Source: Consotaella salsifontis
GTDB lineage: Bacteria; Pseudomonadota; Alphaproteobacteria; Rhizobiales; Rhizobiaceae
Assembly (NCBI RefSeq): GCF_900167365.1
Contig: NZ_FUXL01000012.1
Span: 62,001 to 126,000, forward strand
Length of the DNA stretch: 64,000 bases
Direction: 5' to 3'
The notes beneath the pieces were generated by a model. That model was not told the DNA's origin. It saw only the letters and a program-made list of their open reading frames with translations, and did not search any database. A program made the position numbers and the translations under genes. This document shows positions 9,349 through 27,513 of the stretch, in pieces; position 1 is the stretch's first letter, and every line of letters begins with the position of its first letter.

Positions 9349-9440
9349 TCCGAAGGTCCTTTGTGCCAATGGGTCCGGCACGGATATCGGAATGCGCATG
9401 TCGCGGCGCAACGGTCGATAACGCAGGCTTTATGAAGTGC

Positions 9441-10797: not shown

Positions 10798-10800
10798 CAC

Positions 10801-12474
10801 TCAGTTGCCGAGAATGCCGGGAAGGCGCAGCCCATGTTCCTTGGCACAGTCGATCGCCGCCTCGTAGCCGGCGTCGGCATGGCGCATGACGCCGGTGGCT
10901 GGATCGTTCCAGAGCACCCGCCCGATGCGTCGATCGGCATCCTCGGACCCGTCGCAGCAGATCACCATGCCTGCGTGCTGGGAAAAGCCCATCCCGACGC
11001 CGCCACCGTGGTGGAGCGAGACCCAGGTCGCCCCCGAGGCGGTGTTGAGGAGGGCGTTGAGGAGCGGCCAGTCGGAGACGGCGTCGGAGCCGTCGCTCAT
11101 CGCTTCTGTCTCACGGTTGGGCGAGGCGACGGAGCCGGAGTCGAGATGGTCGCGGCCGATGACGATAGGGGTCTTCAGCTCGCCCTTGCGCACCATCTCG
11201 TTGAAGGCGAGGCCGATGCGGTGGCGATCGCCGAGGCCGACCCAGCAGATGCGTGCCGGCAGGCCCTGAAAGGCGATGCGCTCGCGCGCCATGTCGAGCC
11301 AGCGGTGGAGATGGCCGTCTTGCGGCATCAGCTCCTTCACCTTCTCGTCGGTGCGATAGATATCCTCCGGGTCGCCCGAGAGCGCGGCCCAGCGGAACGG
11401 CCCGACGCCCCGGCAGAACAGAGGCCGGATGTAGGCCGGCACGAAGCCGGGGAAGGCAAAGGCATCCTCGAGACCCTCTTCCTTGGCCATCTGGCGGATG
11501 TTGTTGCCGTAGTCGACGGTGGGAACGCCGGCCTTGGCGAAGTCGACCATGGCGGCGACATGCTGGAGCATGGAGGCGCGGGCGGCCTTTTCGACCGTCT
11601 TCGGCTCGCTCTCCTGGCGCTCGCGCCACTCGGCGACGGACCACCCGAGGGGCAGATAGCCATGGACGGGATCATGCGCGGAGGTCTGGTCGGTGACGAT
11701 GTCGGGCCGCACGCCGCGACGGAAGAGCTCCGGGAAGATGTCGGCGGCGTTGCCGATGAGGCCGACGGATTTCGCCTCGCCCGCCTTTGTCCAGCGCCCG
11801 ATCATCTCCAGCGCCTCGTCGAGGCTCGCCGTTTTTTCGTCGACGTAGCGGGTGCGCAGGCGGAAATCGATGCGGCTCTCGTCGCACTCGACGGCCAGGC
11901 AGCAGGCGCCGGCCATGACGGCGGCAAGCGGCTGGGCGCCGCCCATGCCGCCAAGCCCGCCGGTCAGGATCCACTTGCCCTTGAGGTCGCCGCCATAATG
12001 CTGGCGTCCCGCCTCGGCGAAGGTCTCGTAGGTGCCCTGAACGATGCCCTGAGCGCCGATATAGATCCACGAGCCGGCCGTCATCTGGCCGTACATCATC
12101 AGGCCCTTTTTATCGAGCTCGTTGAAGTGGTCCCAGTTGGCCCAGCGCGGCACGAGGTTGGAATTGGCGATGAGGACGCGCGGCGCGTCCTTGTGGGTGC
12201 GGAACACGCCGACCGGCTTGCCCGACTGGACGAGCAGCGTCTCCTCGTCGGTGAGCGTCTTCAGCGTCGCGACAATGCGGTCGAAATCGTCCCAGGTGCG
12301 CGCGGCACGGCCGATGCCGCCATAGACGACGAGCTCGTTCGGCCGCTCGGCCACATCGGGATCGAGGTTGTTCATGATCATGCGCAGCGGCGCTTCGGTG
12401 AGCCAGCTCCGGGCATTGAGCTCGGAGCCATGCGGCGCCCTGACTTCGCGAATGTTGTGGCGGGGATTGGTCAT
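10801..12474 (-). CDS. hutU: Urocanate hydratase
   Basis: 557-aa NAD-dependent urocanase that converts urocanate to 4-imidazolone-5-propionate, the second step of histidine breakdown. Recognisable stretches are [15 protein letters not shown] at the N-terminus, a glycine-rich NAD-binding region ([14 protein letters not shown], about 165-178) and the C-terminal [15 protein letters not shown] followed by [10 protein letters not shown] chose the second of two adjacent ATGs (12472-12474) because AGGTG lies 5 bp upstream. It is 4 bp after the hutG stop, in the hutH-G-U-D operon. Confidence 0.96.
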
Positions 12475-12478
12475 CATG

Positions 12479-13285
12479 TCACCTGGCGGACTGGAGTTCG
12501 GGGGCGATCGCCACCATGCGTGTCAGGATCGCCTTGAGATGGATGCGGAGCCGCTCAGTCTTCTCATCGTCATAGGCGAAGGGCGCGCTTTCGGTCGTGA
12601 GATAGGCCGACTGCGCCAGCTCCATCTGGAGGGCGTGGATATTTTCGGCGGGCTTGCCGTAGTGGCGCGTCGTCCAGCCGCCGCGAAAGCGTCCGTTGAC
12701 GACATGGCTGTAGCCATCGGCGCCGGCCGCCACCTCCGCCGCGGCCGCCTCGATGCGCGGATCGCAGGTCTTGCCGTTGTCGGTGCCGATGTTGAAGTCG
12801 GGCAGCCGCCCTTCGAAAAGGAAGGGGATGAGCGAGCGGATGGAATGGCAGTCGTAGAGGACGGCGACGCCATGGAGCGCCCTGACGCGCTCGATCTCGG
12901 CGGCGAGCGCCGCGTGATAGGGCTGATGATAGGCCTCGCGTCGCGCCTCGATCTCGGCGGCGTCAGGCTCCTCGCCCTCCTGCCACAGCGGCAGGCCGTC
13001 GAAATCGGTCATGGGCACCAGGCCGGTGGTATTCTGGCCCGGATAGAGGCTCGCCCCGCTCGGATCGCGGTTGGCGTCGATCACGGTGCGGTGGAAGGTC
13101 GCGCGCACCACCGTCGCATCGGGCACCAGCCCATCATAGAGCCGCTCGATGTGCCAGTCGGCATCGGCGCGGCTTTTGCCGACCTCGCTGAGGCGGGAGA
13201 AGATGTCCCCTGGAATGTCGAGGCCGACATGCGGCATGGCGAGAATGAGGGGCGAGCGCCCCTGCTGGACGATGACGGGGTTCAT
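12479..13285 (-). CDS. hutG: N-formylglutamate deformylase
   Basis: 268-aa zinc amidohydrolase of the FGase family. It cleaves N-formyl-L-glutamate to glutamate and formate, the last step of the five-step pathway. Motifs include [39 protein letters not shown] and the tail [16 protein letters not shown]. Its presence with HutF shows that this organism deiminates formiminoglutamate first and then releases formate, rather than formamide. The start overlaps the hutH stop by 4 bp. Confidence 0.95.
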
Positions 13286-14820
13286 CGGGCCGTCTCCAGA
13301 GCCGGCAGGACGTCGGCCACGGGCGCGACGAGAGCGCCGGAGGCGACGAGAGCACGGGCCTTCTCCAGGTCGCCGGCCATATAGCGGTCTTCTTCGAGAG
13401 GCGGCACGACTTGGCGCAGCGCCGCCATCACCGCCGCGAGACGCGCGCTGGTCTGAAGTGGGGCGCGGTATTCGATGCCGCGAACCGCCGTCAACGCCTC
13501 AATGCCGATGATGGTGTGAAGGTTCTCGGTCATGGCGAGAAGGCGGCGCGCGCCGTGGCAGGCCATGGAGACGTGATCCTCCTGATTGGCGGAGGTCGGC
13601 GTCGAATCCACCGAGGCGGGATGCGCCATCTGCTTGTTCTCGCTCATCAGCGCCGCCGACGTTACCTCGGCGATCATGAAGCCCGAGTTGAGCCCCGGCT
13701 TGGAGGCGAGGAACGCGGGAAGCCCGAAGCTCAGGGCCGGATCGACGAGAAGGGCGATGCGCCGCTGGGTGATCGCGCCGATCTCGCAGATGGCGAGGGC
13801 GATCTGGTCGGCGGCGAAGGCCACGGGCTCGGCGTGGAAGTTGCCGCCGGAGACGGCGGTTCCGTCATCGAGGATGAGCGGGTTGTCGGTCGCCGCGTTG
13901 GCCTCGATCTCGAGCGTGGTCGCCGCCTGGCGCAGCAGGTCGAGACAGGCTCCGATCACCTGCGGCTGACAGCGGATGCAATAAGGGTCCTGCACCCGGC
14001 CATCCCCAACGAGGTGGCTTTCGAGGATGGCGGAGCCATCGAGCAACGTCCGCAGCGATGCGGCGACGTCGATCTGGCCCTTGTGTCCGCGCAGATCGTG
14101 GATCGGCGCCTTGAAGGGAGCGGCCGAGCCCATGGCTGCGTCGGTGGAAAGGGCGCCGGAGACGACGGCGGCGCGGATCGCGTGGCTCGCGCGGAAAAGG
14201 CCGGCAAGGGCAAGCGCGGTTGAGACCTGCGTGCCGTTGATGAGGGCAAGGCCCTCCTTGGCGGCGAACGCGACCGGAGAAAGCCCGGCCGCCTCCAGCG
14301 CCTCGCGCCCCGGCCGGCGCTCGCCGGCGACGAAAGCCTCGCCCTCGCCCATCATCACCGCCGCCATGTGGGCGAGCGGCGCGAGATCGCCCGAAGCCCC
14401 GACCGAGCCCTTTTCGGGAATGACGGGCACGACGTTCCTGGCGAGCATCGCCTCGAGAAGCCGCACCACCTCGAGCCGCACGCCCGAGGCGCCTCGCCCG
14501 AGGGAGACGAGCTTCAGCGCCATGATCAGCCGCACGATCTCGGGGGCCAGCGGTGCGCCGACGCCGCAGCAGTGGGAAAGGATGAGGTTGCGCTGAAGCA
14601 GCGCGAGATCGCCTTTGGAAACCTGGACCTGGGCGAGTTTGCCGAAGCCGGTGTTGACGCCATAGACGGGGGCGTCGCCGGCGGCGATCGCCGCCACCGC
14701 GGCCGAGGACTTCTCGACCCCGGCGATGGCCTCGGGCGCGAGCCTGACGGCGCCGCCGTCATGATAGATCGTGGCGAGGACTTCCAGGGAAACCGACCCT
14801 GGATTCAGCATCAGCGTCAT
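13282..14820 (-). CDS. hutH: Histidine ammonia-lyase
   Basis: 512-aa histidase that deaminates L-histidine to urocanate. The Ala142-Ser143-Gly144 triad in [16 protein letters not shown] self-cyclises to the MIO electrophile. The conserved active-site Tyr53 is in YGVNTGFG, and NQEDHVSM and [11 protein letters not shown] appear in the C-terminal half. The length is normal for the family. The ATG at 14818-14820 gives MTLMLNPGS, with AAGGCAAG upstream. It is the first gene of hutHGUD and begins 14 bp after the hutI stop, so the whole set is probably transcribed from the hutI promoter. Confidence 0.96.
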
Positions 14821-14834
14821 CGTGTCTTGCCTTC

Positions 14835-16052
14835 TTAAATGTTGCCGCGCCAGACCCGCCCGTGGAGCGGGTTGAAACCAATTCGGTAGACGAGCTCGGC
14901 CGGCTCCTCGATGTCCCAGATGGCCAGGTCCGCCCACTTGCCGGGCTCGAGCGTCCCGATCTCGCCGAGCCGGCCGAGTGCCCGTGCCGCCTCGCGCGTG
15001 ACGCCGGTAAGGCACTCGTCGACGGAGAGGCCGAAGAGCGTCGCGGCCATGTTCATGGTGAGGAGAAGCGAGGTCAGCGGCGACGTGCCGGGATTGTTGT
15101 CTGTGGCGATGGCGATCGGCACGCCCGCCTTGCGCATGTCATCGACAGCTGGCTTCTTCGTCTCATGGATGAAGTAGAACGCGCCGGGCAGCAGCACCGC
15201 AACGGTGCCGGCGGCGGCCATCGCCGCGATGCCGTCGGCGCTTGCATGTTCGATGTGGTCGGCCGACAGCGCGCCATGGCGCGCGGCGAGGGCGGCGCCG
15301 CCATTGTCGTGAAGCTGGTCGGCGTGGAGCTTCACCGGCAGGCCGAGCGCTCGCGCCCTGGTGAAGACGCGGTCGACCTCCTCGGCCGAAAAGGCGATGG
15401 TCTCGTGGAAGGCGTCGACGGCGTCGGCAAGGCCGAGCCGGGCGATCTCCGACAGCATGTCCTCCACCACATGCGCGACATAGCCCGCGCGGTCGTCCTT
15501 GAATTCCGGCGGCACGGCATGGGCGCCGAGAAAGCTCGTCGTCACCGATACGGGTCGCTTCTCGGCGAGCCGGCGCGCCGCCCGCAGCGCCTTGATCTCG
15601 TTGCTCAAGTCGAGGCCGTATCCCGACTTGATTTCGACCGTGGTGACTCCCTCGGCGATCAGCGCGTCGAGGCGGGGCAGCGTCTCGGCGATGAGCGCTG
15701 CCTCGTCGGCTGCCCGGAAGGCGCGCAGGCTGGAAATGATGCCGCCGCCCGCCTTGGCGATCTCCTCATAGGAGGCGCCCTTCAACCGCATCTCGAATTC
15801 GCGGGCGCGGTTGCCGGCATGGACGAGATGGGTGTGGCAATCGATGAGGCCGGGCGTGATCCAGCGCCCGCCGCAGTCGATCGTCTCCTCCGCGTCGAAC
15901 GCGCCGAGACCGGCCGCCGGGCCGGCATAGACGATGTGGCCGTCGCGGGCCGCGACGACGCCGTCCTCGATACGGCCGAGAGGATTGGTCCCCGCCACCA
16001 TGGTGGCGAGGCGCGCGTTGCGCCAAAGGCGTGATGGTGTGTGAGCAGTCAT
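14835..16052 (-). CDS. hutI: Imidazolonepropionase
   Basis: 405-aa metal-dependent amidohydrolase that opens 4-imidazolone-5-propionate to N-formimino-L-glutamate. The metal-binding HxH is H73/H75 in [10 protein letters not shown]; further motifs are [24 protein letters not shown] and [11 protein letters not shown] place the start at 16050-16052 ([10 protein letters not shown]); an in-frame ATG at 16067 would add five residues and cannot be excluded. The gene heads the minus-strand hut operon and faces hutF across a 100-bp divergent control region with a HutC-type operator. Confidence 0.95.
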
Positions 16053-16087
16053 TGTTGACTCGTCCATGGGCTGGCATCAGTCATGAA

Positions 16088-16122
16088 TTTATGTATAGAC
16101 ATAAACCTGAGATGCTTGTCCA
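16088..16122 (-). promoter_or_regulatory. HutC operator with hutI promoter
   Basis: A perfect inverted repeat TTTATGT-ATAG-ACATAAA (16088-16105) lies between hutI and hutF. On the minus strand it overlaps a plausible -10 TCTATA (16094-16099) placed 17 bp from a -35-like TGGACA (16117-16122). The core TGTATAGACAT recurs upstream of the histidine-cluster ABC transporter (22101-22111). HutC, encoded next door, is a GntR-family urocanate-responsive repressor; assignment of this site to HutC is inferred from position and recurrence. Confidence 0.78.
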
Positions 16123-16152
16123 GTGGTCACTGTTCAAAAAAGAGGATCGTCG

Positions 16153-17511
16153 ATGTCCACCCTGTGGTTTGATCAGGCTCTGCTGCCCAGCGGCTGGGCG
16201 AGGAACGTCGCCATCGAAATCGACGGCGGAAGGATCGTGGCCGTCGAGGCCGATCGCGAACGCACCGGATGCGACGAGGCCCACGCGATCGGCGTGCCCG
16301 GCCTTCCCAACGTTCATAGCCATGCCTTCCAGCGGGCGATGGCGGGCCTCACCGAGGTGCGGGGGGCTTCGCAGGACAGCTTCTGGACGTGGCGCCAGCA
16401 GATGTACCGCACTGTCGACGCGATGACGCCGGACGACGTCGAGGCTGTGGCGGCGCTCGCCTATGTCGAAATGCTGGAGTCGGGTTTCACCCGCGTCGGC
16501 GAGTTCCACTACCTCCACCACGCCGAGGATGGCTCGCGCTATTCGAACGTCGGCGAGATGTCCGCCCGCATCGCCGCAGCGGCGGAGACGACCGGCATCG
16601 GCCTGACGATGCTTCCGGTCTTCTACGCCCATGCCAATTTCGGCGGCGCCGAGCCATCTCCTAGCCAGCGTCGCTTCATTTCGAGCATCGAGACCTATGG
16701 CGAAATCGTCGAGACCGCGCGGGCCGAGGTTTCGCGTCTTCCGGGTGCGGTGGTCGGGATCGCGCCCCACAGCCTCCGCGCCGCGACGTTTCGTGAGATC
16801 GAGGACATTCTTCCGCTTGCCGGAGGCGGGCCGGTGCATATCCATGTCGCCGAGCAGACGCGCGAGGTCGAGGAATGCCTTGCCATCGAGGGCGGACGGC
16901 CGGTGGAGCTGCTGCTGGCCCGCGCCCCGGTCGATGAGCGCTGGTGCCTCATCCACGCGACGCATGTGACGGATGAGGAGGTGCGCGGCATCGTCGCGGC
17001 GGGGGCAACGGTGGGGCTTTGCCCTATCACCGAGGCCAATCTCGGCGACGGCATCTTTCCGGCCGCGGAGTTCGCGGCGGCTGGCGGCCATTTCGCGGTC
17101 GGCTCTGATTCCAATGTGGAAATATCGGCGCCGGGCGAGCTGCGAATGCTCGAATACTCGCAGCGCCTCTCGCGACGGGTTCGCAACGCCATGGCGGCGG
17201 GCAGCGGCCGTTCCACGGGCCGATCGCTGTTCGAGGCGGCGCTTTCCGGCGGCAGCCGCGCGTTAGGCGTAGAGGGAAGGGGGCTCGCTGTCGGCGCCCC
17301 GGCCGATATTGTTTCGCTCGATCCGGCGCGCGCGATCGGCGCGGGGCTTGATCAAGACGCCGTGTTCGATACCTGGATATTCACAGGCGCATCCTCGCTG
17401 GTCGACTGCGTGTGGCGGCATGGTATCAAGCAGGTGGAAGGCGGCAGGCATCGCGCGCGGGAAGTGATCGCCGCCCGCCTTCGAGCGAGTCTGAAGCGGA
17501 TGATGATTTGA
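16153..17511 (+). CDS. hutF: Formimidoylglutamate deiminase
   Basis: 452-aa amidohydrolase that converts N-formimino-L-glutamate to N-formyl-L-glutamate and ammonia. The metal-binding HxH is H55/H57 in NVHSHAFQRAMAG; other family marks are FWTWRQQMYR, GIAPHSLRA, HIHVAEQ and GSDSNVEIS. The ATG at 16153 (MSTLWFDQ) follows GAGG by 7 bp; an upstream in-frame GTG-rich extension has no homology. The stop overlaps the start of hutC, so both genes are co-transcribed and divergent from hutI. Confidence 0.95.
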   Translation: MSTLWFDQALLPSGWARNVAIEIDGGRIVAVEADRERTGCDEAHAIGVPGLPNVHSHAFQRAMAGLTEVRGASQDSFWTWRQQMYRTVDAMTPDDVEAVAALAYVEMLESGFTRVGEFHYLHHAEDGSRYSNVGEMSARIAAAAETTGIGLTMLPVFYAHANFGGAEPSPSQRRFISSIETYGEIVETARAEVSRLPGAVVGIAPHSLRAATFREIEDILPLAGGGPVHIHVAEQTREVEECLAIEGGRPVELLLARAPVDERWCLIHATHVTDEEVRGIVAAGATVGLCPITEANLGDGIFPAAEFAAAGGHFAVGSDSNVEISAPGELRMLEYSQRLSRRVRNAMAAGSGRSTGRSLFEAALSGGSRALGVEGRGLAVGAPADIVSLDPARAIGAGLDQDAVFDTWIFTGASSLVDCVWRHGIKQVEGGRHRAREVIAARLRASLKRMMI

Positions 17512-18248
17512 ACGAGACAAGCAACAAGGGTGAGTCGCGGGCCGATCCGGCGCTCTACCGGCGCATTCGCGCGGACCTTGAGGAAGCGATCCTTTCCGGG
17601 AAATGGCCTCCCGGCCACCGTATTCCCTTCGAGCATGAGCTCATGGTCCGCTATGACTGCGCGCGCATGACCGTGAACCGGGCGGTCTCGGCGCTGGTGG
17701 ATTCGGGGCTCGTCGAGCGCCGCCGCCGCGCCGGAACGTTCGTCGCGCAACGAAAGGTCGAGTCCGCCGTCCTCAACATTCCAAACCTCGCCGACGAGGT
17801 GAAGGCGCGCGGCATGCGCTACAGCTATCGCCGCCTCTCCCTCGATCGTCGCGCGGCCGGCGCCGAGGACGTGAAGGACTATGGCGTGGAAGAACGGGCG
17901 GATATCATCGAGATTCGCTCGCTGCACTTCGCCGACGACATTCCGCTCGTCTGCGAGCTCCGTCTCATCCACGTCGCGGCGGTGCCGGCGGTCGCGGATC
18001 TGACCTTCGAGGAGGCTTCGCCGGGAAGCTGGCTTCTGGCCCATGTGCCGTGGACGGAAGCCCAGCACCGGATCTCGGCCGTCACCCCCGATCGGCAGAC
18101 CACGGCGCTTCTCGAAATTCCGCGCAACACGGCCTGCCTCTGCCTCGAGCGGCGAACCTGGCGCAACGGCGGCCCCGTCACCTTCGCGCGGCAGATTTTC
18201 CGCGGCGACATGTACCATTTCGCCGCCCACTTCGTGCCGAGCAACTGA
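17508..18248 (+). CDS. hutC: Histidine utilisation repressor HutC (GntR family)
   Basis: 246-aa regulator with an N-terminal GntR winged helix (about 10-75, with RIPFEHELMVRYDCARMTVNRA) and a C-terminal UTRA ligand domain (about 90-240, ending IFRGDMYHFAAHFVP). HutC proteins repress hut genes and are released by urocanate. No ATG is suitably placed; the likely start is the TTG at 17508-17510, which overlaps the hutF stop (TTGA) and gives MNETSNKGES. Its presumed operators are at 16088-16105 and 22101-22111. Confidence 0.92.
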   Translation: MNETSNKGESRADPALYRRIRADLEEAILSGKWPPGHRIPFEHELMVRYDCARMTVNRAVSALVDSGLVERRRRAGTFVAQRKVESAVLNIPNLADEVKARGMRYSYRRLSLDRRAAGAEDVKDYGVEERADIIEIRSLHFADDIPLVCELRLIHVAAVPAVADLTFEEASPGSWLLAHVPWTEAQHRISAVTPDRQTTALLEIPRNTACLCLERRTWRNGGPVTFARQIFRGDMYHFAAHFVPSN

Positions 18249-18267
18249 GCGTATTTTCCTGATCGTC

Positions 18268-18304
18268 GCCGGCCTGCCACGCCATGGAGGCGCGGCAGGC
18301 CGGC
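18268..18304. terminator. Bidirectional terminator hairpin between hutC and the transporter operon
   Basis: An 11-bp perfect stem, GCCGGCCTGCC (18268-18278) with GGCAGGCCGGC (18294-18304), separates the convergent ends of hutC and the cyclophilin-like gene. It is very GC-rich and lacks a strong U-run. Confidence 0.65.
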
Positions 18305-18322
18305 GGCTTCATTCAAGTCTGG

Positions 18323-18748
18323 TCAGTCGATGACCTTCATCTCCAGGACGCGGCCCTGGTCGAACCAGGTTTCCATGCCGGTGACGCGGAGCTGCATCTG
18401 GCCTTCCACGACCTCGCCGATATAGGAGATCGGCAGGGGCTCGTCGGAGGTGTCGTCGCCATAGACGATGCAGAACTGCTGGCGCGGGCTGTAGAAGCAG
18501 ACGGTGCCGGCGGCCGTGCCGTACTGCTTGATGCGCTCCTTGCCGAGATCGCCGGTGACATGCAGGTTTTCCCACGGCGCGACGATGGGCAGCGTGAAGA
18601 AGATCAGGTCGCCGTTGAGCTTGCCGTGCTGAAGCATCGTCTTCATCGGCAGCTTTTCGCGCAGCTCCTTGGCAATGATCGGGACCTTGTCTTCCCAGAC
18701 CTCGATCTTGCAGATTTCCTTGCCTTCGATTTCAATCGCGAGACGCAT
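18323..18748 (-). CDS. Cyclophilin-like (DUF3830-type) protein, cucumopine-synthase N-domain-like
   Basis: 141-aa protein beginning MRLAIEIEGKEICKIEVWED, with the beta-barrel pattern of the cyclophilin-like DUF3830 group: an early helix (PIIAKELREKLP), then APWENLHV, GTVCFYSPRQQFCIVYG and PISYIGEVVEG. From memory of the family, the same fold forms the N-terminal half of cucumopine/mikimopine synthase of Agrobacterium, which condenses histidine with 2-oxoglutarate. The next gene upstream resembles the C-terminal helical half. The start at 18746-18748 follows GAGGAGA. It is the last gene of a histidine-linked transporter operon. An enzymatic role is inferred, not shown. Confidence 0.7.
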   Translation of the reverse strand: MRLAIEIEGKEICKIEVWEDKVPIIAKELREKLPMKTMLQHGKLNGDLIFFTLPIVAPWENLHVTGDLGKERIKQYGTAAGTVCFYSPRQQFCIVYGDDTSDEPLPISYIGEVVEGQMQLRVTGMETWFDQGRVLEMKVID

Positions 18749-18774
18749 TTTTTCTCTCCTCGTTCGTGTGGGGC

Positions 18775-19263
18775 TTAGTCGGCTTTGGCCTTGAGCGGCT
18801 TCTTGCGGAAGCCGCCACCCAGGCCCCAGGGGAGGATGAAATCGACCCACATGTGCAGGCGGTTGGCATAGCCGAGCGCTGCCTTGGTGAGAGCCAGAAG
18901 CTCGGCGTTGGTGGTGCAGGCCTGGGCCGCATCCACATACATGCGGGTCATCTCGCAGGCATGCGGCAGGCCGACGAAGTCGAAGAACGACGCCTTGTAG
19001 CCGATGACCTGGGCAATATAGGCCTGCAGCGTCTTGAGGTCGGGCTCGCTGTCCTCAATGACGCGGATGATGCCCCAAAGGAACTCGTCGGCGAAGGTGC
19101 GGGTCTCGCCCTCGGCGAAGATGATGGTCGACAGATACTGGCCACGCGAGCCGGAATTGCGCGGGACATAGCCCTCGCTGAGCGAGCGAACCTCCTCCGG
19201 TTGATCGAGCCAAATCTTCTCCCGCTCGGCTTCGAGCTTCCTGATCGCCTCTTCAACGGTCAT
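18775..19263 (-). CDS. Cucumopine synthase-related helical bundle protein
   Basis: 162-aa protein, almost entirely helical by composition, with no signal peptide or membrane segment. Distinctive stretches are EGYVPRNSGSRGQYLSTII, FADEFLWGIIRVIEDSEPD and GLPHACEMTRMYVDAAQ. I recognise it as the family annotated as cucumopine synthase-related helical bundle (Cucumopine_C-like). It lies 26 bp upstream of the cyclophilin-like gene, in the order expected if a two-domain enzyme had been split or two subunits work together. The ATG at 19261-19263 has a weak AGGAAAG-type ribosome site. It could instead be an unrelated small helical protein; the family call rests on memory of sequence style and on context. 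Confidence 0.6.
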   Translation of the reverse strand: MTVEEAIRKLEAEREKIWLDQPEEVRSLSEGYVPRNSGSRGQYLSTIIFAEGETRTFADEFLWGIIRVIEDSEPDLKTLQAYIAQVIGYKASFFDFVGLPHACEMTRMYVDAAQACTTNAELLALTKAALGYANRLHMWVDFILPWGLGGGFRKKPLKAKAD

Positions 19264-19385
19264 GAACTTTCCTTTCTTCCTGGATTTGCTGGCCGTTCCG
19301 CCGCATGGCGATGACGGCATGGAGGGCTCGGCGTCAGCGCGCCGATCGCTGTGGCCGCCGGCATTCGCGCGGCCGCTTTTTCCTT

Positions 19386-20150
19386 TCAGAGAACGCGGGC
19401 GAAGAAGGAGCGCGCGCGTTCGCTGGTGGGATTGTTGAAGACCTCGTTGGGAGGACCGCACTCGACGACGCGACCGTCGTCCATGAAGGCGACGCGATCG
19501 CAGACTTCCCTGGCGAAGGCCATTTCGTGGGTCACCACGACCATGGTCATGCCGTCGGCCGCGAGGTCCTTCATCACGGCCAGAACCTCGCCCACCAGCT
19601 CGGGATCGAGCGCGGAGGTCGGCTCGTCGAAGAGCATCAGCTTGGGGTCCATTGCCAGCGCCCTGGCGATGGCCACCCGCTGCTGCTGACCGCCGGAAAG
19701 CTGGGATGGATAGGCATCCGCCTTGGATGACAGGCCGACGCGCTCGAGAAGCGCAGCCGCTCTGGCGCGCGCGCGCTCGACGGGCTGCCGCTTCACCTGC
19801 ACCGGGCCCTCGATAACGTTCTCGATCGCCGTCTTGTGGCCGAAGAGGTTGAAGCGCTGAAACACCATGCCGATTTCGGCCCGCGTCAGCGCCACTTCCG
19901 CGTCGGACAGCTCGTAGAGCTTGTTGTCGCTGCGTCGGTAGCCGACGGGCTCGCCATCGACGGCGAGATAGCCGCCGGTGATCTTGGTCAGATGGTTGAT
20001 GCAGCGCAGAAAGGTCGACTTGCCGGAGCCGGAGGGGCCGATGAGGCTGACGACCTCGCCTCGGTCGACGGTGAAATCGATGCCCTTCAGGATCATCTGG
20101 TGGCCGATCTGCTTCTCCACGCCGACCGCTTCGACCATGTGGAAACTCAT
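19386..20150 (-). CDS. Amino acid ABC transporter ATP-binding protein
   Basis: 254-aa ATPase of the polar-amino-acid (HisP/GlnQ) class. Walker A is GPSGSGKST (38-46), the signature is LSGGQQQR and Walker B is [14 protein letters not shown], followed by the switch His in [14 protein letters not shown] characteristic insert, [16 protein letters not shown], precedes the Q-loop. The start overlaps the permease stop by 4 bp. It probably powers uptake of histidine or a histidine derivative, judging from the operon and the HutC-type operator. Confidence 0.93.
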
Positions 20151-21046
20151 GTCCGCTCTCCCGGCTGAGGTGTGGCGGAGTGCCGGCCCCGGGCATAATG
20201 GCGCTCGATGCGCCCCTGGATCACGGTCAGCACCGACGTCAGCAAGAGGTACCAGCAGCAGCACACGAGCAGCAGCGGAATCACCTCGAAATTGCGCGAA
20301 TAGATGGTCTGCGCCGAGTAGAGCAGGTCCGACAGGGAAATGACGCTGACGAGGGACGTCATCTTCAACATGCCGATGGTCTCGTTGCCCGTCGGCGGAA
20401 TGATGAACGGCATGGCCTGCGGCAACACGATACGCCGCATGGCGCGCAGACGCGTCATGCCGATGGCGCGCGCCGCCTCTTCCTGTCCCGTGTCGACCGA
20501 CCCGATGCCCGCCCGCACGATCTCCGCCATATAGGCGCCCTCGTTGAGGCTGAGGCCGAGAAACGCCGCCATGAAGGGCGTGATGAGGGTGTTGGTGTTG
20601 ACGGTGAAGAGGCTCGGGCCGAAGGGCACGCCGATCGACAGATTGGGGAACAGCGCCGCGAGGTTGTACCAGAAGATCAGCTGCACCAGGATCGGGGTGC
20701 CCCGGAAGAACCAGATGTAGACCTTGGCGAAACCGACCACCAGCCAGTGCTCCGAGCGGTGCATGACGGCGATGATGATGCCCAGGACCGCGCCGGTGAG
20801 CATGCACATCGCGGTGAGGCCGAGCGTGGTGGCGAGGCCTTCGAGAATAGCGGTCGAGAACAGGTAGCTGCCGACCAGCGGCCATTCGAAGTTGGGATTG
20901 AGAACCACGCTCTGGAGAAGCGCCAGCCCGACGAAGACGACGATCAGAGGCGGAACGAAGCGCAGGACCGAGCGGCGAGGGACGACTTCCATGTGCTCGT
21001 GCCGAGGCGGATCGTTGATGTCCTGTGAGGTCTCGTGGGTCACCAT
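20147..21046 (-). CDS. Amino acid ABC transporter permease (HisM/GlnP type)
   Basis: 299-aa permease of the His/Glu/Gln/Arg/opine (HEQRo) family. It has a hydrophilic N-terminal tail of about 35 residues and about five membrane segments. The EAA loop reads [20 protein letters not shown], and the conserved [11 protein letters not shown] and [14 protein letters not shown] are present. A single permease gene implies a homodimeric channel. The ATG at 21044-21046 is preceded by AAGGGGAAA. The HEQRo family includes opine importers, which fits the cucumopine-like neighbours. Confidence 0.93.
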
Positions 21047-21114
21047 GGCGATTTCCCCTTCCAGCGAATGAAACGGGGGCCGCCGGGAGAGCCGGCGGCC
21101 CGTGCGGCATCGGC

Positions 21115-22044
21115 TCAGGGCTTCGGCTGGGTCAGCGGCTTCTTGGTCGCCAGGTTGATGCCAGGCTCCTTGAGCGCCAGCAGGGAAATGTCCCACTTCT
21201 CCATGATCTTGTCATAGACGCCCTCGGCATGGACCGCCTTGAGGCCCGCCAGAAGCGCCTCGGCCAATTCCATGTTGTCCTTCTTGACCACCATCCCGTT
21301 GTAGTACTTCGGGAGATACTCGTTCTCGACGACGCGGATCGGCTTGGGCGCGCGCTTCTTAATCTCCTCCGTGGCGGCGATGTCGTTCAGCACGAAATCG
21401 ACGCGCCCCGAATAGAGGGCCAGCAGCACGGCGTCGCCCGACGGGTACTGGTTGACGGTGACGGGCTTCAACCCCTTCGACGTGCAGTGAGGCGTCATCT
21501 CGTCATTGACGACGTTGACGAAGTCGAAGCCTTGCTGGACCGCGACGGTGAGCCCGCAGAGCGAATCCGCGTCCGACGTGATGGACGTGTTGGATGCCAG
21601 CTTGAACACGGCACCGGTGGCATAGGCGTCGTCAATGAAGGTCACGCGCTTCTGGCGCTCGGGATTGTCGGAGATGCACTCGGCGGCCATGTCGTAGCGG
21701 CCACCCTCCACGCCGGGGATGAGGCCGGCGAAATCGATCGACTCGACAGTGTAGGTGATGCCGAGCTTTTCGGTGATCGCCTTCCACAGATCCGGCTCGT
21801 AGCCGACGATCGTCTTGTTGTCCGCCGCGAAATATTGGCACGGCGGGTAATGGGCATCGGTGACGATGGAGATCTTGCCGGCTTCCCGGATCTTCTCGGG
21901 CAGCATGTCGTGCAGACTCTTGTCGGCTTGCAGAGCCGGAATTCCGGCCCCAACCACCTCCGCCTCGTCGGCGAAGGCAACACCCGTCAGCATGGTGAAT
22001 GCGAGGACTGCGGTGGCAAGCGGTGTCGGAATCCCGGCTGTCAT
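21115..22044 (-). CDS. Amino acid/opine ABC transporter substrate-binding protein
   Basis: 309-aa periplasmic protein of SBP_bac_3 type. Residues 1-25 are a signal peptide ending GVAFA. The mature protein has [46 protein letters not shown] and [10 protein letters not shown], all landmarks of cluster-3 amino acid binders. The start at 22042-22044 follows GAGGG. First gene of the five-gene operon; the HutC-type operator lies 57 bp upstream. The ligand is not readable directly; histidine, urocanate or a histidine conjugate is likely from context. Confidence 0.92.
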
Positions 22045-22098: not shown

Positions 22099-22126
22099 TT
22101 TGTATAGACATATAGAAGGCTGTCAA
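22099..22126 (-). promoter_or_regulatory. Promoter with second HutC-type operator
   Basis: On the minus strand a consensus -35 TTGACA (22121-22126) is followed after 16 bp by TACAAA (22099-22104). The spacer and -10 are covered by TGTATAGACAT (22101-22111), identical to the core of the operator between hutI and hutF. A weaker copy, CTGTCTATCC, lies at 22134-22143. Repressor binding here would block polymerase. This puts the transporter and cucumopine-like operon in the HutC regulon by inference. Confidence 0.7.
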
Positions 22127-22644
22127 GCGCATTCTGTCTATCCTGGTAGCGAGCCCAATTTTTAGGCAAAAGACAAGCGGCCTCCGGTTGTCGCCTTGCG
22201 CACCAATGCGAACTGAACGTGTTTTCTGGGATGGAGGGGCGACAGGGCAGGCTGAGGGGCGATGGCGGTCGACTGTCGATCTGCGGCGGGACGGTGTCGC
22301 CTGCGTCAAAAAAAGCCTTTGACAGGCACCCCGGTTGCTTCGTATGTAAGCGCTTACAGGAGTGAGGGTATGGTCTGGGAGATGAGGCTCGAGCCGGGGG
22401 AGCGACAGGCTTCCTTCTGAAGCCGGCATTGGGCTGCCGAACGATCGTTCCGACCTGAAGAAATTTGCGGCGTCCAGGGCTTGTCGGCGCCGTCGCGTTC
22501 GCGCGGCGGCATGCTCGGCGGCAACGGGAAAGCCATGTGCGGGCGGGGGCGGAGCACGTCTTCTGGCGGCGCTCCGCCCTCCGGGTGAATTAGCGTTGCC
22601 GCGCTGCGGTGGTGCGCGAGGATTGGATAGTTGGTGGGCAGGAA
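22127..22644. other. Divergent intergenic region upstream of the DapA-family gene
   Basis: About 520 bp between the transporter promoter and the plus-strand aldolase gene. It contains the LacI-type promoter/operator listed separately. About 285 bp of transcribed leader follow it. A 16-codon frame beginning at 22370 (MVWEMRLEPG, preceded by GGAG) could be a leader peptide but has no other support. Nothing else is recognised. Confidence 0.5.
22319..22358 (+). promoter_or_regulatory. Promoter with LacI-family operator
   Basis: -35 TTGACA (22319-22324) and -10 TATGTA (22343-22348) with an 18-bp spacer. The perfect palindrome TGTAAGCGCTTACA (22345-22358) overlaps the -10 and start point. The central CG with GTAAGC arms is the classic LacI/GalR-family operator form. 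A LacI-type regulator lies at the other end of the cluster (27817-28959) and is the likely ligand-controlled repressor. Confidence 0.82.
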
Positions 22645-23571
22645 ATGACGCGATACGAAGGTATCATTCCGGTGATGATCACGCCGTTCAAGGACGACGG
22701 CGCGATCGATTATGAGGGCGTCTCCAGGCTGGTGGACTGGTATGTGGAGAACGGTGCCGACGTTCTGTTCGCCGTCTGCCAGTCGAGCGAGATGCTGTTC
22801 CTCAGCCTGGACGAGCGGGTCGCTCTCGCCCGTCACGTCAAGAAGGCGGCGGCGGGCCGCATCCCGGTCATCGCGTCCGGCCATGTCAGCGATCGCCTTG
22901 AGGACCAGGAGCGCGAACTCAATGCGGTGGCGGAGGCGGGTGTCGACGGCATCGTGCTCGTGACCAATCGCCTCGACGCCGATCAGCGGGGCGGCGGCAA
23001 GTTTCTCGATGACCTCGGCTGGCTGCTCGACCGCCTGCCGGCGGATCTGCCGCTCGGCCTCTATGAGTGCCCTGCGCCCTATCGGCGGCTTCTGAGCGAC
23101 GATGAGATCCGGTTCTGCGCGCAGTCGGGGCGGTTCGTGGTGCTCAAGGATGTGTCCTGCGACCTCGCCACCGTCGAGCGCCGGGTCGCCCTCACCAAAG
23201 GCTCCAAGCTGTCGGTGGTCAATGCCAACGCCGCCATCGCCTTCGCGGCGATGCGCGCCGGCTCCAACGGCTTCACCGGCGTCTTCACCAACATCCACCC
23301 CGATCTCTACAAGTGGCTGCTCACCCATTGGCGGGAGCATCGGGAACTGGCGGACGAACTGTCGGTCTATCTGGCGCTGTCGGCCATGGCCGAGCCGATG
23401 GGCTACCCCAAGCTCGCCAAGCTCTATCACCAGCGTCTTGGAACCTTCGCGGGCGTCGGCAGCCGCGCCGTGACCTTCGATATTCGTGAGAAATTCTGGG
23501 CGCTCGATGCGCTGATCGACAAGATCGTCGAGGGGCAGGACCAGTTCCGCCGCCGCATCGCCGCGCTCTGA
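22645..23571 (+). CDS. DapA/NanA-family (class I) aldolase or dehydratase
   Basis: 308-aa TIM-barrel enzyme of the dihydrodipicolinate synthase/N-acetylneuraminate lyase family. The Schiff-base Lys168 is in FVVLKDVS, and the catalytic Tyr140 is in GLYECPAPYR. The pyruvate-carboxylate loop, normally GTTGE or GSTGE, reads CQSSEM here, so it is not a standard DapA. With a TRAP transporter, a hydroxyacid dehydrogenase and a LacI regulator it is more likely a catabolic 2-keto-acid aldolase or dehydratase for a sugar acid. The ATG at 22645 follows AGGA. It is the first gene behind the LacI-type promoter. Confidence 0.88.
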   Translation: MTRYEGIIPVMITPFKDDGAIDYEGVSRLVDWYVENGADVLFAVCQSSEMLFLSLDERVALARHVKKAAAGRIPVIASGHVSDRLEDQERELNAVAEAGVDGIVLVTNRLDADQRGGGKFLDDLGWLLDRLPADLPLGLYECPAPYRRLLSDDEIRFCAQSGRFVVLKDVSCDLATVERRVALTKGSKLSVVNANAAIAFAAMRAGSNGFTGVFTNIHPDLYKWLLTHWREHRELADELSVYLALSAMAEPMGYPKLAKLYHQRLGTFAGVGSRAVTFDIREKFWALDALIDKIVEGQDQFRRRIAAL

Positions 23572-23664
23572 GCGGCGGCGATCCGTCAGACGATGCCATC
23601 GGGTCAAGGGCGTTTCCTTCGCAGTCGAGGGCGCCCGGGCACCGGGAGAGAGTGAGGGCAAGCC

Positions 23665-24618
23665 ATGTCACACAAGGTGCTGGTCACTGCGACCAATTAT
23701 TCGAAACTGTGCCGCGAGGCGAAGGCGCTGTTCGAGGAGAACGGCTGGGAGGTGGTGGAGAACACCTTCGGCCGGCCGATGACTTTCGACGAGCTGAAGT
23801 CGCGCGTCGGCGATATCGATGCCGTCATCGCCGGTGTCGACGACTGGAACGAGGCGGTCTTCAAGATCGCTCCGAAGCTCAAGGTGATCAGCCGTTTCGG
23901 CGTCGGTGTCGACAATATCGACGTGGAGACCGCGCGCCGCCACGGCATCGCCGTGACCAATGCGGCCGGCGGCAACTCCAACGCGGTGGCGGAGATCACC
24001 ATCGGCCTCATCATTTCCGCGATGCGCGCCATCCCTCAGCTTCACCAGACGACCCGCCAGGGCCGCTGGGATCGCTTCGTCGGCGAGGAAATTCTCGGCC
24101 GGACCGTCGGCATTCTCGGCTTCGGCAATATCGCCCAGAAGATCGCCCGGAAATTGCAGGGGTTCGAGGTCGAGGTTCTCGCCTACGACAAGTACCCCAA
24201 CCAGGAGGCGGCTTCGCGCCTGGGCGTGACATTGGCAACCTCGGAGGATGTGCTGTCGCGGGCCGACGTGCTCCTGATGATGCTGCCGAGCCTGCCCGAG
24301 ACGCGCGGCTTCATGAACGCCGAGACCTTCGCGAAAATGAAGGACGACGCCTACTTCATCAACACGGCCCGAGGCGCCCTGGTCGACGAGACGGCGCTGG
24401 CAGACGCGCTTTCGAGCGGCAAGCTCAGGGCGGCGGCGATCGACGTCTATCAAAGCGAGCCGACCTCGGCGGACAATCCGCTGTTCCAGTTGGACGGCAT
24501 CGTCACCACGCCCCACACCGCGGCCGAGACCTTTGAGGCCTATCGCGGTATCGGGCTCCTGACAGCGCGGGCCGTGCTCGACGTCTTCGCCGGTCGCAGC
24601 CCTGCCAATCTTCTGTAG
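23665..24618 (+). CDS. D-isomer 2-hydroxyacid dehydrogenase (phosphoglycerate dehydrogenase-like)
   Basis: 317-aa NAD-dependent dehydrogenase with a catalytic domain split around a Rossmann domain. The dinucleotide-binding loop is GILGFGNIA (149-157); active-site residues are Arg236 (TARGALVD), Glu265 and His284 (TPHTAAE). SerA-like features include FGVGVDNID. It lacks the regulatory ACT/ASB domains of long SerA enzymes. Context suggests oxidation or reduction of a sugar-derived 2-hydroxy/2-keto acid rather than serine synthesis. It begins 94 bp after the aldolase with a GGGAGAG-type site. Confidence 0.9.
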   Translation: MSHKVLVTATNYSKLCREAKALFEENGWEVVENTFGRPMTFDELKSRVGDIDAVIAGVDDWNEAVFKIAPKLKVISRFGVGVDNIDVETARRHGIAVTNAAGGNSNAVAEITIGLIISAMRAIPQLHQTTRQGRWDRFVGEEILGRTVGILGFGNIAQKIARKLQGFEVEVLAYDKYPNQEAASRLGVTLATSEDVLSRADVLLMMLPSLPETRGFMNAETFAKMKDDAYFINTARGALVDETALADALSSGKLRAAAIDVYQSEPTSADNPLFQLDGIVTTPHTAAETFEAYRGIGLLTARAVLDVFAGRSPANLL

Positions 24619-24678
24619 CGGCCTCAAAGCCCGCCCCCGAAACTTCAGTCGCCCGGTGGAGCGGGCAGGGGAGGAATC

Positions 24679-25185
24679 TTGAAAATCGTCGACCTCTTCG
24701 ATCGTAACTTCGAGAAGTCCATCGTCACGGTGATCCTCGTGGCCACGTCGTTGATCCTCGTGGTCCAGGTCTTCATGCGCTATGTGCTCGGCTCCCCGCT
24801 GGTTTGGGCGGAGGAGCTGGCGCGGTATCTGCTCGTCTGGTGCACCATGATCGGCACCAGTCTGGCGGTCAGGGAGAGCCGCCACATCGTCGTCGATTTC
24901 GCTCCCGTTGTCTTCGGCGCGCGCTCCGTCGGCCTCTTCAGCGTGCTCTCCCATATTGGTGTCCTGATCTTCTGCGGGGTGATCCTCTACTACGCCATCC
25001 CCTTCGTCGAGCGGGTTCGCGCGCTTGGTCAGCTTTCGCCGACGCTCGAGATCCCGATGTGGCTGGTCTACGCCGCTCTTCCCGTCGGCGCCGCAGCCTC
25101 CGCGCTGCGCACCCTTCAGGCCATGTGGTTGCTCCATAGGGGTGTTCCGGTTCCGGCCGGACAGAATGCCGAGGAGTCGCTCTGA
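24679..25185 (+). CDS. TRAP transporter small permease (DctQ family)
   Basis: 168-aa protein with four hydrophobic segments and the DctQ landmarks VFMRYVLGSPLVWAEELARY and ESRHIVVDF. It is the small membrane subunit that couples the binding protein to the large permease in a Na+-dependent TRAP importer. The start is a TTG at 24679, preceded by GGGGAGG; no ATG or GTG is better placed. The stop overlaps the DctM start (TGATG). Confidence 0.92.
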   Translation: MKIVDLFDRNFEKSIVTVILVATSLILVVQVFMRYVLGSPLVWAEELARYLLVWCTMIGTSLAVRESRHIVVDFAPVVFGARSVGLFSVLSHIGVLIFCGVILYYAIPFVERVRALGQLSPTLEIPMWLVYAALPVGAAASALRTLQAMWLLHRGVPVPAGQNAEESL

Positions 25186-26462
25186 TGTATCCTCTCGTCG
25201 CTCTCGGCTCTTTCCTCCTCATTCTGCTTCTCACCGTGCCCATCGCCATGTCGCTTGGACTGGCGGCCTTCATTCCGGGCTGGATGGGGGCGCCGGTCAA
25301 CCCGAGCCAGGTGGTGCGCACGATCGTCACGGCGATCGATTCGTTCCCGCTGCTCGCCGTGCCGCTGTTCATGGTCGCCGGCGACATCATGACCCGCGGC
25401 GGCCTCGCCAAGCGGCTCTTCAATTTTGCCGATGCGCTGCTCGGACGCTTCAACGGCGGACTGGCCATCGCCACCGTCGTCGCCTGCATGCTGTTCGGCG
25501 CCATTTCCGGTTCCTCGCCCGCCACGGTCGCGGCCATTGGCTCCATGGCGATCCCGCTCCTGGTGTCGAATGGCTACGAGAAGCGCTTCGCCACCGTGCT
25601 CGTGGTTTGCGCCGGCACCCTCGGCGTGATCGTGCCGCCGAGCATCCCCATGATCATCTACGGCATGTCGGCGGGCGTCTCGGTCAGCGCGCTGTTCATC
25701 GCCGGCATCGGCCCGGCCTGCGTCATTGGCGGCCTGCTGTCGGCCTATGCCTTCTGGTACGGCACCAAGAACAAGCACAGGATCACGACCCAAGCAGGCA
25801 AGATTTCCCTGATCCGAGCGACACGCGAGAGCTTCTGGGCGTTGCTGGCCCCGGTCGTGGTGCTCGGTGGCATCTATTCGGGCGCCTTCACGCCGACCGA
25901 GGCGGCGGCGATCGCGGTAGCCTACAGCGCCGTTGTCTCGCTCTTCATCTTCCGCGAGATGAACCTGCCGCAGCTTCTGGACACCATCGGGCGCACTTCG
26001 CTCACCATCGCGCCGATCCTCATCATCGCCGGCACCGGCGCCGCCCTCGGCCGCGTCTTCAACCTGCTGCGCGTGCCCGTGATGCTGGGTGACCTGATCT
26101 CCAGCGTCGTCAGCGAGCCGGTGATGCTGCTCCTGCTCATCAACGCGATGTTGCTGGTCGTCGGCATGTTCATGGAGACGCTCGCCGCCATCATCGTGCT
26201 GACGCCGATCTTCCTGCCGATCGTCATGCCGTACGGCGTCGACCCGATCCATTTCGGCCTGATCATGACGACCAACCTTGCCATCGGCTTCGTCACGCCG
26301 CCAGTGGGCGCCAACATCTTCGTCGCCACGGGACTGACCAAGTTGTCGATGGTGGACGTGTGCAAGGGGCTGCCTGTTCCCCTGGCCATGCTCGTCATCG
26401 CCCTGGCCATCATCACCTATGTGCCGGCGCTGTCGCTCTGGCTGCCGGGCCTCGGCGGCTGA
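25185..26462 (+). CDS. TRAP transporter large permease (DctM family)
   Basis: 425-aa membrane protein with about twelve segments, the transport-forming subunit. Characteristic stretches are VPLFMVAGDIMTRGGLAKRL, CMLFGAISGSSPATVAAIG, GVIVPPSIPMIIYG, TPTEAAAIAVAYS and GFVTPPVGANIFVA. Normal length for the family. Translationally coupled to the small permease by a one-base overlap. Confidence 0.95.
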   Translation: MYPLVALGSFLLILLLTVPIAMSLGLAAFIPGWMGAPVNPSQVVRTIVTAIDSFPLLAVPLFMVAGDIMTRGGLAKRLFNFADALLGRFNGGLAIATVVACMLFGAISGSSPATVAAIGSMAIPLLVSNGYEKRFATVLVVCAGTLGVIVPPSIPMIIYGMSAGVSVSALFIAGIGPACVIGGLLSAYAFWYGTKNKHRITTQAGKISLIRATRESFWALLAPVVVLGGIYSGAFTPTEAAAIAVAYSAVVSLFIFREMNLPQLLDTIGRTSLTIAPILIIAGTGAALGRVFNLLRVPVMLGDLISSVVSEPVMLLLLINAMLLVVGMFMETLAAIIVLTPIFLPIVMPYGVDPIHFGLIMTTNLAIGFVTPPVGANIFVATGLTKLSMVDVCKGLPVPLAMLVIALAIITYVPALSLWLPGLGG

Positions 26463-26505
26463 ACCGGTCAACTATCATCCGCGATCCAAAAAGGGAGTGA
26501 GAAAA

Positions 26506-27513
26506 ATGAAACTGACGAGATCCTTCGTCGCTGCCGCCGCGCTTGCCGTGGCGACCGCACTGCCGACCATCGCGTCGGCGGCCGATTACACGATGATCAT
26601 GGCCCACACGCTGTCGGACACCAAGCATCCGATCTATCAGGCGTTCCTCAAGCTGAAGAAGGACATCGAGGAGCGCTCGGGTGGGCGCATCGAGGTGGTG
26701 GACCAGGGTGGCGGCGCCCTCGGCGGCGATCGCGAGATCATGGAATCCACCATGTTCGGCGATGTGCAGTTCGGGCCGATGGCGAGCTCCGGCGCCACGC
26801 AGTTCATCCCCGAACTCGCCGTTTTCGACATTCCTTACGTGATGCCGACGGACAGCGAGGAGAGGCGCGCGCTGACCAACGAGGGTCCTCTGGCCGATGC
26901 CATCGCCAAGGCGCTCGAGGCCAAGGGCCTGCGCTTTGAGGGCACTATGGACGGCGGCTTCCGCAACCTCACCACGTCCAACACCGAGGTTCACACCCCC
27001 AAGGACATCGCCGATGCGGGATTGCGCATCCGTGTCCAGGAGAACCCGATCCACATCGCCATCTGGAAGGCTCTCGGTGCCGCGCCGACGCCGATCTCCT
27101 TCCCCGAGCTTTACGGCGCGTTGCAGCAGGGCGTCGTCGACGGACAGGAGAATCCCTACGGTCACATCCTGTCCCAGCATTTCTACGAGGTGCAGAAGTA
27201 CCTCATGAACACGCGCCACATCTTCCTGGCGAACCTCAACATCATCAACCTCGCCTGGTACCAGGATCTGCCGGACGATCTGAAGAAGGTCGTGGACGAC
27301 AGCTTCAAGGATGCGACCGACTACCAGTGGCAGCTTCAGGCCGAGCTCGAGCAGGGACAGCGCGCCGAACTCGCCAAGCACATGACGATCGTCGACCTCT
27401 CTCCCGAGGAGCTGAAGCAGTTCCAGGAAAAGACCGCCGACGTCATCGATATGGTGCGGGAGAAGGCTGGCAACGAGATCGTCGACACGCTGATGTCGCA
27501 GATCAAGAAATAA
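26506..27513 (+). CDS. TRAP transporter substrate-binding protein (DctP family)
   Basis: 335-aa periplasmic protein. Residues 1-25 are a signal peptide ending IASAA. The ligand-anchoring Arg lies in LRIRVQENPIHIAIWKALGA; this conserved arginine salt-bridges the carboxylate of the substrate in DctP/SiaP-type proteins. ALQQGVVDGQENPYGHIL is also typical. The substrate is therefore probably a carboxylate such as a uronate or aldonate. The ATG at 26506 follows GGGAG. The strong hairpin just downstream ends the operon. Confidence 0.94.
   Translation: MKLTRSFVAAAALAVATALPTIASAADYTMIMAHTLSDTKHPIYQAFLKLKKDIEERSGGRIEVVDQGGGALGGDREIMESTMFGDVQFGPMASSGATQFIPELAVFDIPYVMPTDSEERRALTNEGPLADAIAKALEAKGLRFEGTMDGGFRNLTTSNTEVHTPKDIADAGLRIRVQENPIHIAIWKALGAAPTPISFPELYGALQQGVVDGQENPYGHILSQHFYEVQKYLMNTRHIFLANLNIINLAWYQDLPDDLKKVVDDSFKDATDYQWQLQAELEQGQRAELAKHMTIVDLSPEELKQFQEKTADVIDMVREKAGNEIVDTLMSQIKK

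Follow-up and report, generated by a model that had tools for sequence, protein, structure and literature searches.

The systems closest to the locus described here are the cucumopine and mikimopine regions of opine plasmids and two β-carboline-forming enzymes. According to excerpts of PMC9103826, cucumopine and mikimopine both derive in part from histidine and differ from each other as diastereomers at C-4. Excerpts of two further papers assign pRi1724 to the mikimopine type and pRi2659 to the cucumopine type (PMC8554961, PMC6733357), and an excerpt of a third presents pAtAG67 as an octopine/cucumopine-catabolic plasmid without a T-DNA (PMC10745273). The pRi1724 region (NC_002575) carries a split pair of genes for a cyclophilin-like (Cyp, DUF3830) and a helical (Hel, Cucumopine_C) protein, ABC transporters, oxoprolinases and hutF, I, H, G, U and D; the hut regions of pAtAG67 and pRi2659 (hutU, G, I, F, H, C and D) each encode two fused enzymes that between them show both domain orders, and likewise contain oxoprolinases and ABC transporters. 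Oxoprolinases have been suggested, for another opine and in an excerpt of PMC6733357, to open lactams. A further plasmid, pSYMBR3459, encodes a fused enzyme in a region with hutU, G, H, I and F.

The window, by which we mean the whole stretch of 64,000 nucleotides of Consotaella salsifontis that was analysed, resembles each of these systems in part. Like the mikimopine region, it has two separate, co-directional genes of both families together with an amino-acid-type ABC transporter and hutF, I, H, G and U, and the profiles match. In contrast to it, the window has the order Hel then Cyp rather than Cyp then Hel, identity is about 27%, and pRi1724 adds oxoprolinase A/B genes, other regulators and a plasmid location beside rol-like genes and a fused mis-like gene. 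With pRi2659 and pAtAG67 the window shares both domains, the hut genes, a regulator annotated there as hutC and an amino-acid ABC transporter, but those plasmids encode both domains in one chain (in the window they are two separate ORFs), hold two paralogues in the hut region, and carry oxoprolinase and MmgE/PrpD genes; their Cyp-Hel enzyme is about 26% identical to the window pair. The β-carboline Pictet-Spenglerases McbB (3x27) and KslB (9ns6, 9k0a) match both halves by predicted fold, and the helical half also by sequence, whereas they differ in being fused and synthetic and in taking tryptophan as the amine. Finally, ordinary HutC-controlled hut operons with a histidine-type importer have the hut genes, HutC and HEQRo importer in common with the window. 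To our knowledge, the pair of genes that we call HelB and CypL does not belong to the usual hut operon set. On the evidence of sequence and predicted structure, we propose that HelB and CypL probably form a two-subunit enzyme of the Pictet-Spenglerase type that splits imported histidine adducts and passes the histidine to HutH.

Architecture and regulation of the operon

The operon lies on the minus strand, in the order solute-binding protein, permease, ATPase, HelB and CypL. Its first gene encodes a family-3 solute-binding protein (21115-22044; PF00497, 1.2e-30; start at 22044 picked by eye in an ORF that opens at 22080), followed by an HEQRo-type ABC permease (20150-21049; TIGR01726 HEQRo_perm_3TM of NCBIfam, 72.7 bits, cut-off 42.2) and an amino-acid-type ABC ATPase (19386-20153; PF00005 and GlnQ/HisP-like matches, below their cut-offs). 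HelB, a helical-bundle protein of 162 residues (18778-19263), and CypL, a cyclophilin-like protein of 141 residues (18323-18748), close the operon, and each has a purine run resembling a ribosome-binding site upstream. A CypL homologue lies directly downstream of HelB, in the same order, at all 21 related loci that we found, so HelB and CypL can be taken as real genes; a chance pair of ORFs is ruled out by the same conservation.

This operon converges on the end of hutC, one of a set of hut genes. On the minus strand are hutU, for urocanate hydratase (10801-12477; TIGR01228, 975 bits, cut-off 375), hutG, for N-formylglutamate deformylase (12479-13285; TIGR02017, 390 bits, cut-off 279), hutH, for histidine ammonia-lyase (13282-14820, start by eye in an ORF that opens at 15015), and hutI, for imidazolonepropionase (14835-16067; TIGR01224, 450 bits, cut-off 298). 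We named hutH by its identity to annotated plasmid copies, which is 69-72% for Ri, At and Sodalis plasmids and 56% for pSYMBR3459. On the plus strand are hutF, for formimidoylglutamate deiminase (16154-17511; NF006683, 689 bits, cut-off 654, scanned from the ORF opening at 16123), and the repressor gene hutC (17508-18248; TIGR02018 equivalog, 290 bits, cut-off 220, scanned from 17511), whose TTG start overlaps the hutF stop. Between the convergent ends of hutC and CypL, at about 18268-18306, a hairpin of -46 kcal/mol (z -7.4 against shuffles) is perhaps a terminator.

HutC, for which urocanate is the inducer, would act on both transcription units. The pattern TNTGTATAGACATA matches the 4,652,084-base genome twice, both times in the window, and its reversed control not at all. 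One match, TATGTATAGACATA, lies between hutI and hutF (16090-16103, plus strand), and the other, TTTGTATAGACATA, lies 55 bases upstream of the start that we chose for the solute-binding protein (22099-22112, plus strand). Allowing up to three mismatches to TATGTATAGACATA adds no further place within the window, and the two, counted on both strands, give four matches; shuffled windows had a mean of 0.23, and one of 100 shuffles reached four. It is well supported by this sequence evidence that the importer-HelB-CypL operon belongs to the HutC regulon, because the predicted operator is common only to hutI/hutF and the importer operon, and an equivalog-level HutC is encoded alongside. Elsewhere, the exact pattern occurs in two of the 43 loci examined, both from one genome, and seven stretches inspected upstream of relatives' importers share no clear palindrome.

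The preliminary description of this DNA had placed two adjacent, co-directional ORFs of 141 and 162 residues behind an HEQRo-type ABC transporter and under a HutC-type operator. Each of these elements is present as described: the pair lies on the minus strand, the transporter is co-directional and upstream with its permease above the family cut-off, and the operator, predicted by sequence, is one of the only two matches in the genome.

Beyond the operator, at 22642-26462 on the plus strand, Pfam matches indicate a DHDPS-family enzyme and a D-2-hydroxyacid dehydrogenase, and by eye there are TRAP-transporter-like genes; this adjoining stretch perhaps serves a separate oxo-acid or sugar-acid pathway.

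Family and fold of HelB and CypL

HelB is, by profile match and predicted fold, a full-length Cucumopine_C protein and the helical half of McbB/KslB-type Pictet-Spenglerases. It matches PF18631 with 154.5 bits (cut-off 27) over profile positions 1-139 of 141. By sequence, its best PDB entry is 3x27 (E 1.4e-15), followed by 9ns6, which fold-library titles identify as McbB and KslB, respectively; a profile search reaches 3x27 at 1.3e-19. The AlphaFold model (mean pLDDT 80.8) leads to the same enzymes: the best 31 rows listed by Foldseek are all McbB or KslB, the VIA Z score to McbB is 15.3 as against 10.4 for the best row outside the family, and among the matches listed McbB and KslB are the only proteins with both Foldseek E <0.1 and VIA Z >12. 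In profile-profile comparisons, HelB aligns with the Hel proteins of the mikimopine-type and two other pairs at E 5.8e-23 and with three cucumopine-type Cyp-Hel proteins at 95.7% probability (E 9.6e-9). The family is sparse, with PF18631 matches in four of 199 genomes sampled from the bacterial family, four of 385 from the class and one of 398 from the phylum, the window's own genome being counted each time.

By sequence, the evidence for CypL is weaker. It exceeds the cut-off of Pfam Cyclophil_like2 (26.4 bits, cut-off 22.7) and falls below that of DUF3830, a family with no mention in the literature that we searched. Profile searches of the PDB reach 2nnz at E 0.0084 and KslB only at E 1.1; profile-profile comparison with CypL proteins of the mikimopine-type and two other pairs gives E 1.3e-9, but that with three cucumopine-type Cyp-Hel proteins only 33.8% probability (E 0.00043), and CypL alone finds nothing on the plasmids at E 0.01. 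The AlphaFold model (mean pLDDT 70) matches the synthase half with a Foldseek probability of 1.0 and, by VIA, residues 180-317 of KslB with Z 12.4 (2.6-2.9 Å) and McbB with Z 11.4. In this model the cyclophilin-like fold, that of the other half of the Pictet-Spenglerases, is clear. We rejected a cyclophilin fold alone as proof of family, given that TM1367 reaches Z 13.2 and that ordinary cyclophilins, at about 11, come close to McbB. Because ordinary cyclophilins score nearly alike, we base the family assignment of CypL on its HelB partner, on the fusions and on adjacency. The fusions are informative in themselves, since homologues join the two domains in both orders, Cyp-Hel and Hel-Cyp, an argument for joint action of the split proteins.

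The earlier assignments thus hold: the 141-residue protein is cyclophilin-like by profile and by its match to the KslB/McbB half, and the 162-residue protein is the helical-bundle half by its whole-length Cucumopine_C match and its fold. The comparison of predicted structures with the synthase halves, put forward earlier as a check, pairs both proteins with McbB and KslB, CypL less distinctively, and the proposed cucumopine-synthase-like identity of the pair is supported at the level of sequence and model.

A candidate catalytic residue can be proposed for CypL. The catalytic Glu of McbB, which we take to be E97, would be the Glu of YGPLTE in the 3x27 alignment, given the tag offset that we worked out, and CypL E103, in YG-DDTSD-E, may correspond to it. 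MAFFT places E103 opposite the McbB Glu, after the YG motif, and this Glu is invariant in 27 of 27 rows, whereas hhalign shifts the pairing by one residue, so that D102 meets the Glu. The loop from YG to Glu is two residues longer in CypL than in McbB, and the model has pLDDT <50 at residues 98-104, E103 included. In KslB, mis, the cucumopine enzymes and the pSYMBR3459 enzymes, a Glu stands four residues after YG. The 27-row alignments leave out loci L043 and L010; the structure alignments cover the window and L023-L042, without the plasmid rows, L011, L012 and L043.

These data also bear on whether the pair might carry out some other step on histidine or urocanate, such as isomerisation, protection or regulation, rather than Pictet-Spengler-type chemistry. 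In its favour, ordinary cyclophilins match the CypL fold nearly as well as the enzymes do, and titles and excerpts in the literature searched yielded no characterised split-subunit enzyme of the family. Nevertheless, the exclusive match of HelB to McbB and KslB among the matches listed, and the Glu after the YG motif in every CypL row aligned, make such a role very improbable.

Close relatives and the identity of the amine

Because no part of an eight-row HelB alignment was sufficiently conserved to serve in a contig scan, we scanned contigs with the single HelB protein of the window, a query that reaches close relatives only. The scan found 21 distinct loci with 59-72% identity in Rhodobacterales, Hyphomicrobiales and Enterobacterales, which together with the window make up the W-type loci. 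HelB and CypL are two separate reading frames in the relatives too; on the draft contig L043 both genes are broken. Importer parts of the same type (at least 40% identity) accompany the pair in 20 of the 21 relatives, the exception being L033, a contig of 7.9 kb, and the same transporter type lies beside the split pair of another subfamily on a Paraburkholderia plasmid.

The hut genes are less constant companions. Within the DNA examined, hutU, G, H, I or F are present at only four of the 22 W-type loci (the window, L028, L029 and L030), some contigs being short. Fifteen of the 21 relatives fall into groups whose gene set differs and includes no hut gene within the DNA examined; these groups, defined by shared neighbours and descent, are Rhodobacterales L023-L027 and the main Enterobacterales set L031, L033-L040 and L042. 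Two more loci show the importer-HelB-CypL order (L041) or its end (L032), both with no hut gene in view. Cluster names taken from L034 (Serratia sp. M24T3) describe the recurrent neighbours: an ORF of the glutamine-synthetase cluster is nearby in 14 of 21 loci (named type III in L034 only), an aldo-keto reductase in 11, a luciferase-like monooxygenase in 11 and a Rieske oxygenase in nine, the last in Enterobacterales only. Because of this second, non-hut setting, we claim no single substrate for the subfamily, and W-type substrates may vary.

For the window itself, this raises the possibility that the enzyme belongs to the same family and works in the same direction but that the amine half of its substrate is something other than histidine, the adduct being derived from tryptophan, DOPA or histamine, for instance, with an opportunistic hut link. 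The non-hut majority of relatives and their shared glutamine synthetase, aldo-keto reductase, monooxygenase and Rieske ORFs are consistent with this possibility, as are the use of tryptophan by McbB and KslB and the distance between the window's solute-binding protein and those of the opine regions (20-25% identity where they match at all). By contrast, the operator is common only to the hut genes and this operon, and hut linkage recurs in three other subfamilies, the mikimopine type, the cucumopine type and the L011 type. Moreover, the HelB tree unites the W-type rows (support 99/97) and sets them beside the mikimopine-type group (94/86). Among the W-type rows, the window joins those that lack hut genes (97/96) and is separated from the others with a hut link; because the window branches apart, the hut link would not stem from one recent shared ancestor alone. 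The tree took 13 of the 22 W-type rows and has several long branches, so deeper joins are unsure, and weak PF18631 matches (L004, L006, L007 and the longer stretches L014-L016) were left out of both tree and counts. Taken together, we regard a non-histidine amine as unlikely, though a serious alternative. The histidine link that had been proposed for the pair is supported by the operator common to hut and this operon and by relatives on mikimopine and cucumopine plasmids, where hutU, G, H, I and F lie in their regions. Among the other subfamilies, split pairs without a hut gene within the DNA examined also occur in S. medicae (L018, L045), G042 (L010) and Paraburkholderia (L021).

Several neighbourhoods merit mention in their own right. 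In L034, the type III glutamine synthetase, Rieske oxygenase, luciferase-like monooxygenase and aldo-keto reductase lie at 11031-20240 in what looks like a catabolic cluster, and a MetX-like hydrolase and a TetR regulator are there as well. In the Devosia locus L029, a Dak1-Dak2 dihydroxyacetone-kinase-like protein (4188-5882, minus strand) stands beside the UTRA regulator that adjoins the importer-HelB-CypL operon, and an ORF of the same kinase-like cluster is also near the L028 operon.

Opine plasmids and the direction of the reaction

The set of functions that we would look for in a histidine-opine catabolic region, namely Cyp and Hel domains, an amino-acid importer and hutU, G, H, I and F, is present in the window. 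The oxoprolinases are the missing part: Hydantoinase_B matches only contig C30, in one long frame, and not the window's contig, C23. Because they are missing from the contig, the substrate may be an adduct without a lactam, or only the open form may be used. RolB_RolC (PF02027) has no match in the genome, nor in any control genome.

Enzymes of both apparent directions occur on the plasmids. On pRi2659 (L049), the rol-adjacent gene, presumed from its place to be the T-DNA cucumopine synthase, and the Hel-Cyp copy of the hut region share 284 of 315 residues (90.2%); the two genes, at 9234-10196 (minus) and 26301-27248 (plus) in strain K599, look like recent copies. On pSYMBR3459 of Paraburkholderia phenoliruptrix (600000-648000, L048), two fused Hel-Cyp copies at 10227-11198 (plus) and 34236-35222 (minus) agree in 316 of the first 320 residues and 944 of the first 960 bases, and the 400 bases to either side of them are not notably similar. 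One of these copies lies in a cluster of hut, importer, oxoprolinase and chemoreceptor genes, two genes before hutH; the other follows hisZ-like and hisG genes and has hisC and an MFS transporter gene nearby. On pRi1724, the fused mis-like gene has 44.6% identity to the split pair beside it when the two members of that pair are joined into one sequence. On pAtAG67, the fused enzymes would not be plant-expressed synthases, because the plasmid is described, in the excerpt cited above, as catabolic and without a T-DNA. Near-copies on the presumed synthesis and degradation sides of two plasmids suggest that the chemistry probably runs both ways, and the simplest reading of these sequences would be one reversible chemistry whose direction is set by the enzyme's surroundings.

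As a separate observation, the pSYMBR3459 arrangement has the look of a cycle in which a histidine-derived rhizopine is made and then eaten.

The surroundings in the window point towards cleavage, the most likely direction given the importer and the hut genes. Alternatively, the pair could be a synthase that turns plentiful histidine into a histidine-oxoacid adduct inside the cell, to serve as a store, a metallophore or a signal; both McbB and KslB are synthetic, and the pSYMBR3459 homologue among the his genes looks so. We consider this improbable, as the five genes of the operon include an importer but no his gene or exporter, and its operator is common with a breakdown pathway.

On our preferred reading, cleavage of imported histidine adducts, the ABC importer would take up an adduct of histidine with an oxo-acid or an aldehyde, whose six-membered ring is fused with the imidazole as it is in cucumopine. 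An oxo-acid partner would be within the family's range, since KslB joins tryptophan to 2-oxoglutarate. Next, HelB-CypL would protonate the adduct and open its ring in a cofactor-free retro-Pictet-Spengler reaction, yielding histidine and a carbonyl compound. HutH and the remaining hut enzymes would then remove the histidine, pulling the reversible step towards cleavage, and urocanate formed en route would lift HutC from both promoters.

Titles and excerpts in the literature searched, which lies mostly outside subscription journals, gave no instance of an enzyme of this family divided into subunits within a hut operon and no enzymatic retro-Pictet-Spengler step; the papers on retro-Pictet-Spengler chemistry are, by title, a review of the reaction and work on a sponge natural product. 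The family is already known; its split, hut-wired form is new as far as these searches go. If our reading is correct, it would name an enzyme for the breakdown of histidine-type opines, a step undescribed in the excerpts of the literature searched. It would add a cofactor-free, cleavage-directed Pictet-Spenglerase in two separable subunits, make histidine conjugates a food outside Agrobacterium, and suggest bacterial catabolic enzymes as a source of plant-expressed opine synthases. More broadly, and tentatively, histidine opines may be a general currency well beyond crown gall and hairy root. Many Pseudomonadota, both free-living and living with plants, would eat them by means of chromosomal two-subunit retro-Pictet-Spenglerases, some, such as the bearer of the mimosa symbiont plasmid pSYMBR3459, would both make and consume them in rhizopine-like fashion with one enzyme working both ways, and T-DNA synthases would be re-used copies of bacterial degradation enzymes. 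We hold this wider picture with considerable doubt.

One further locus brings the different forms of the enzyme together. A stretch of about 35 kb in genome G254 (contig C31, 140000-174900; L012 and L013) holds a mikimopine-type split pair and both fused types, together with hutH, hutU, a hutG-like ORF, oxoprolinases and an importer, and positions 9132-9145 of L013 match the HutC-type operator pattern.
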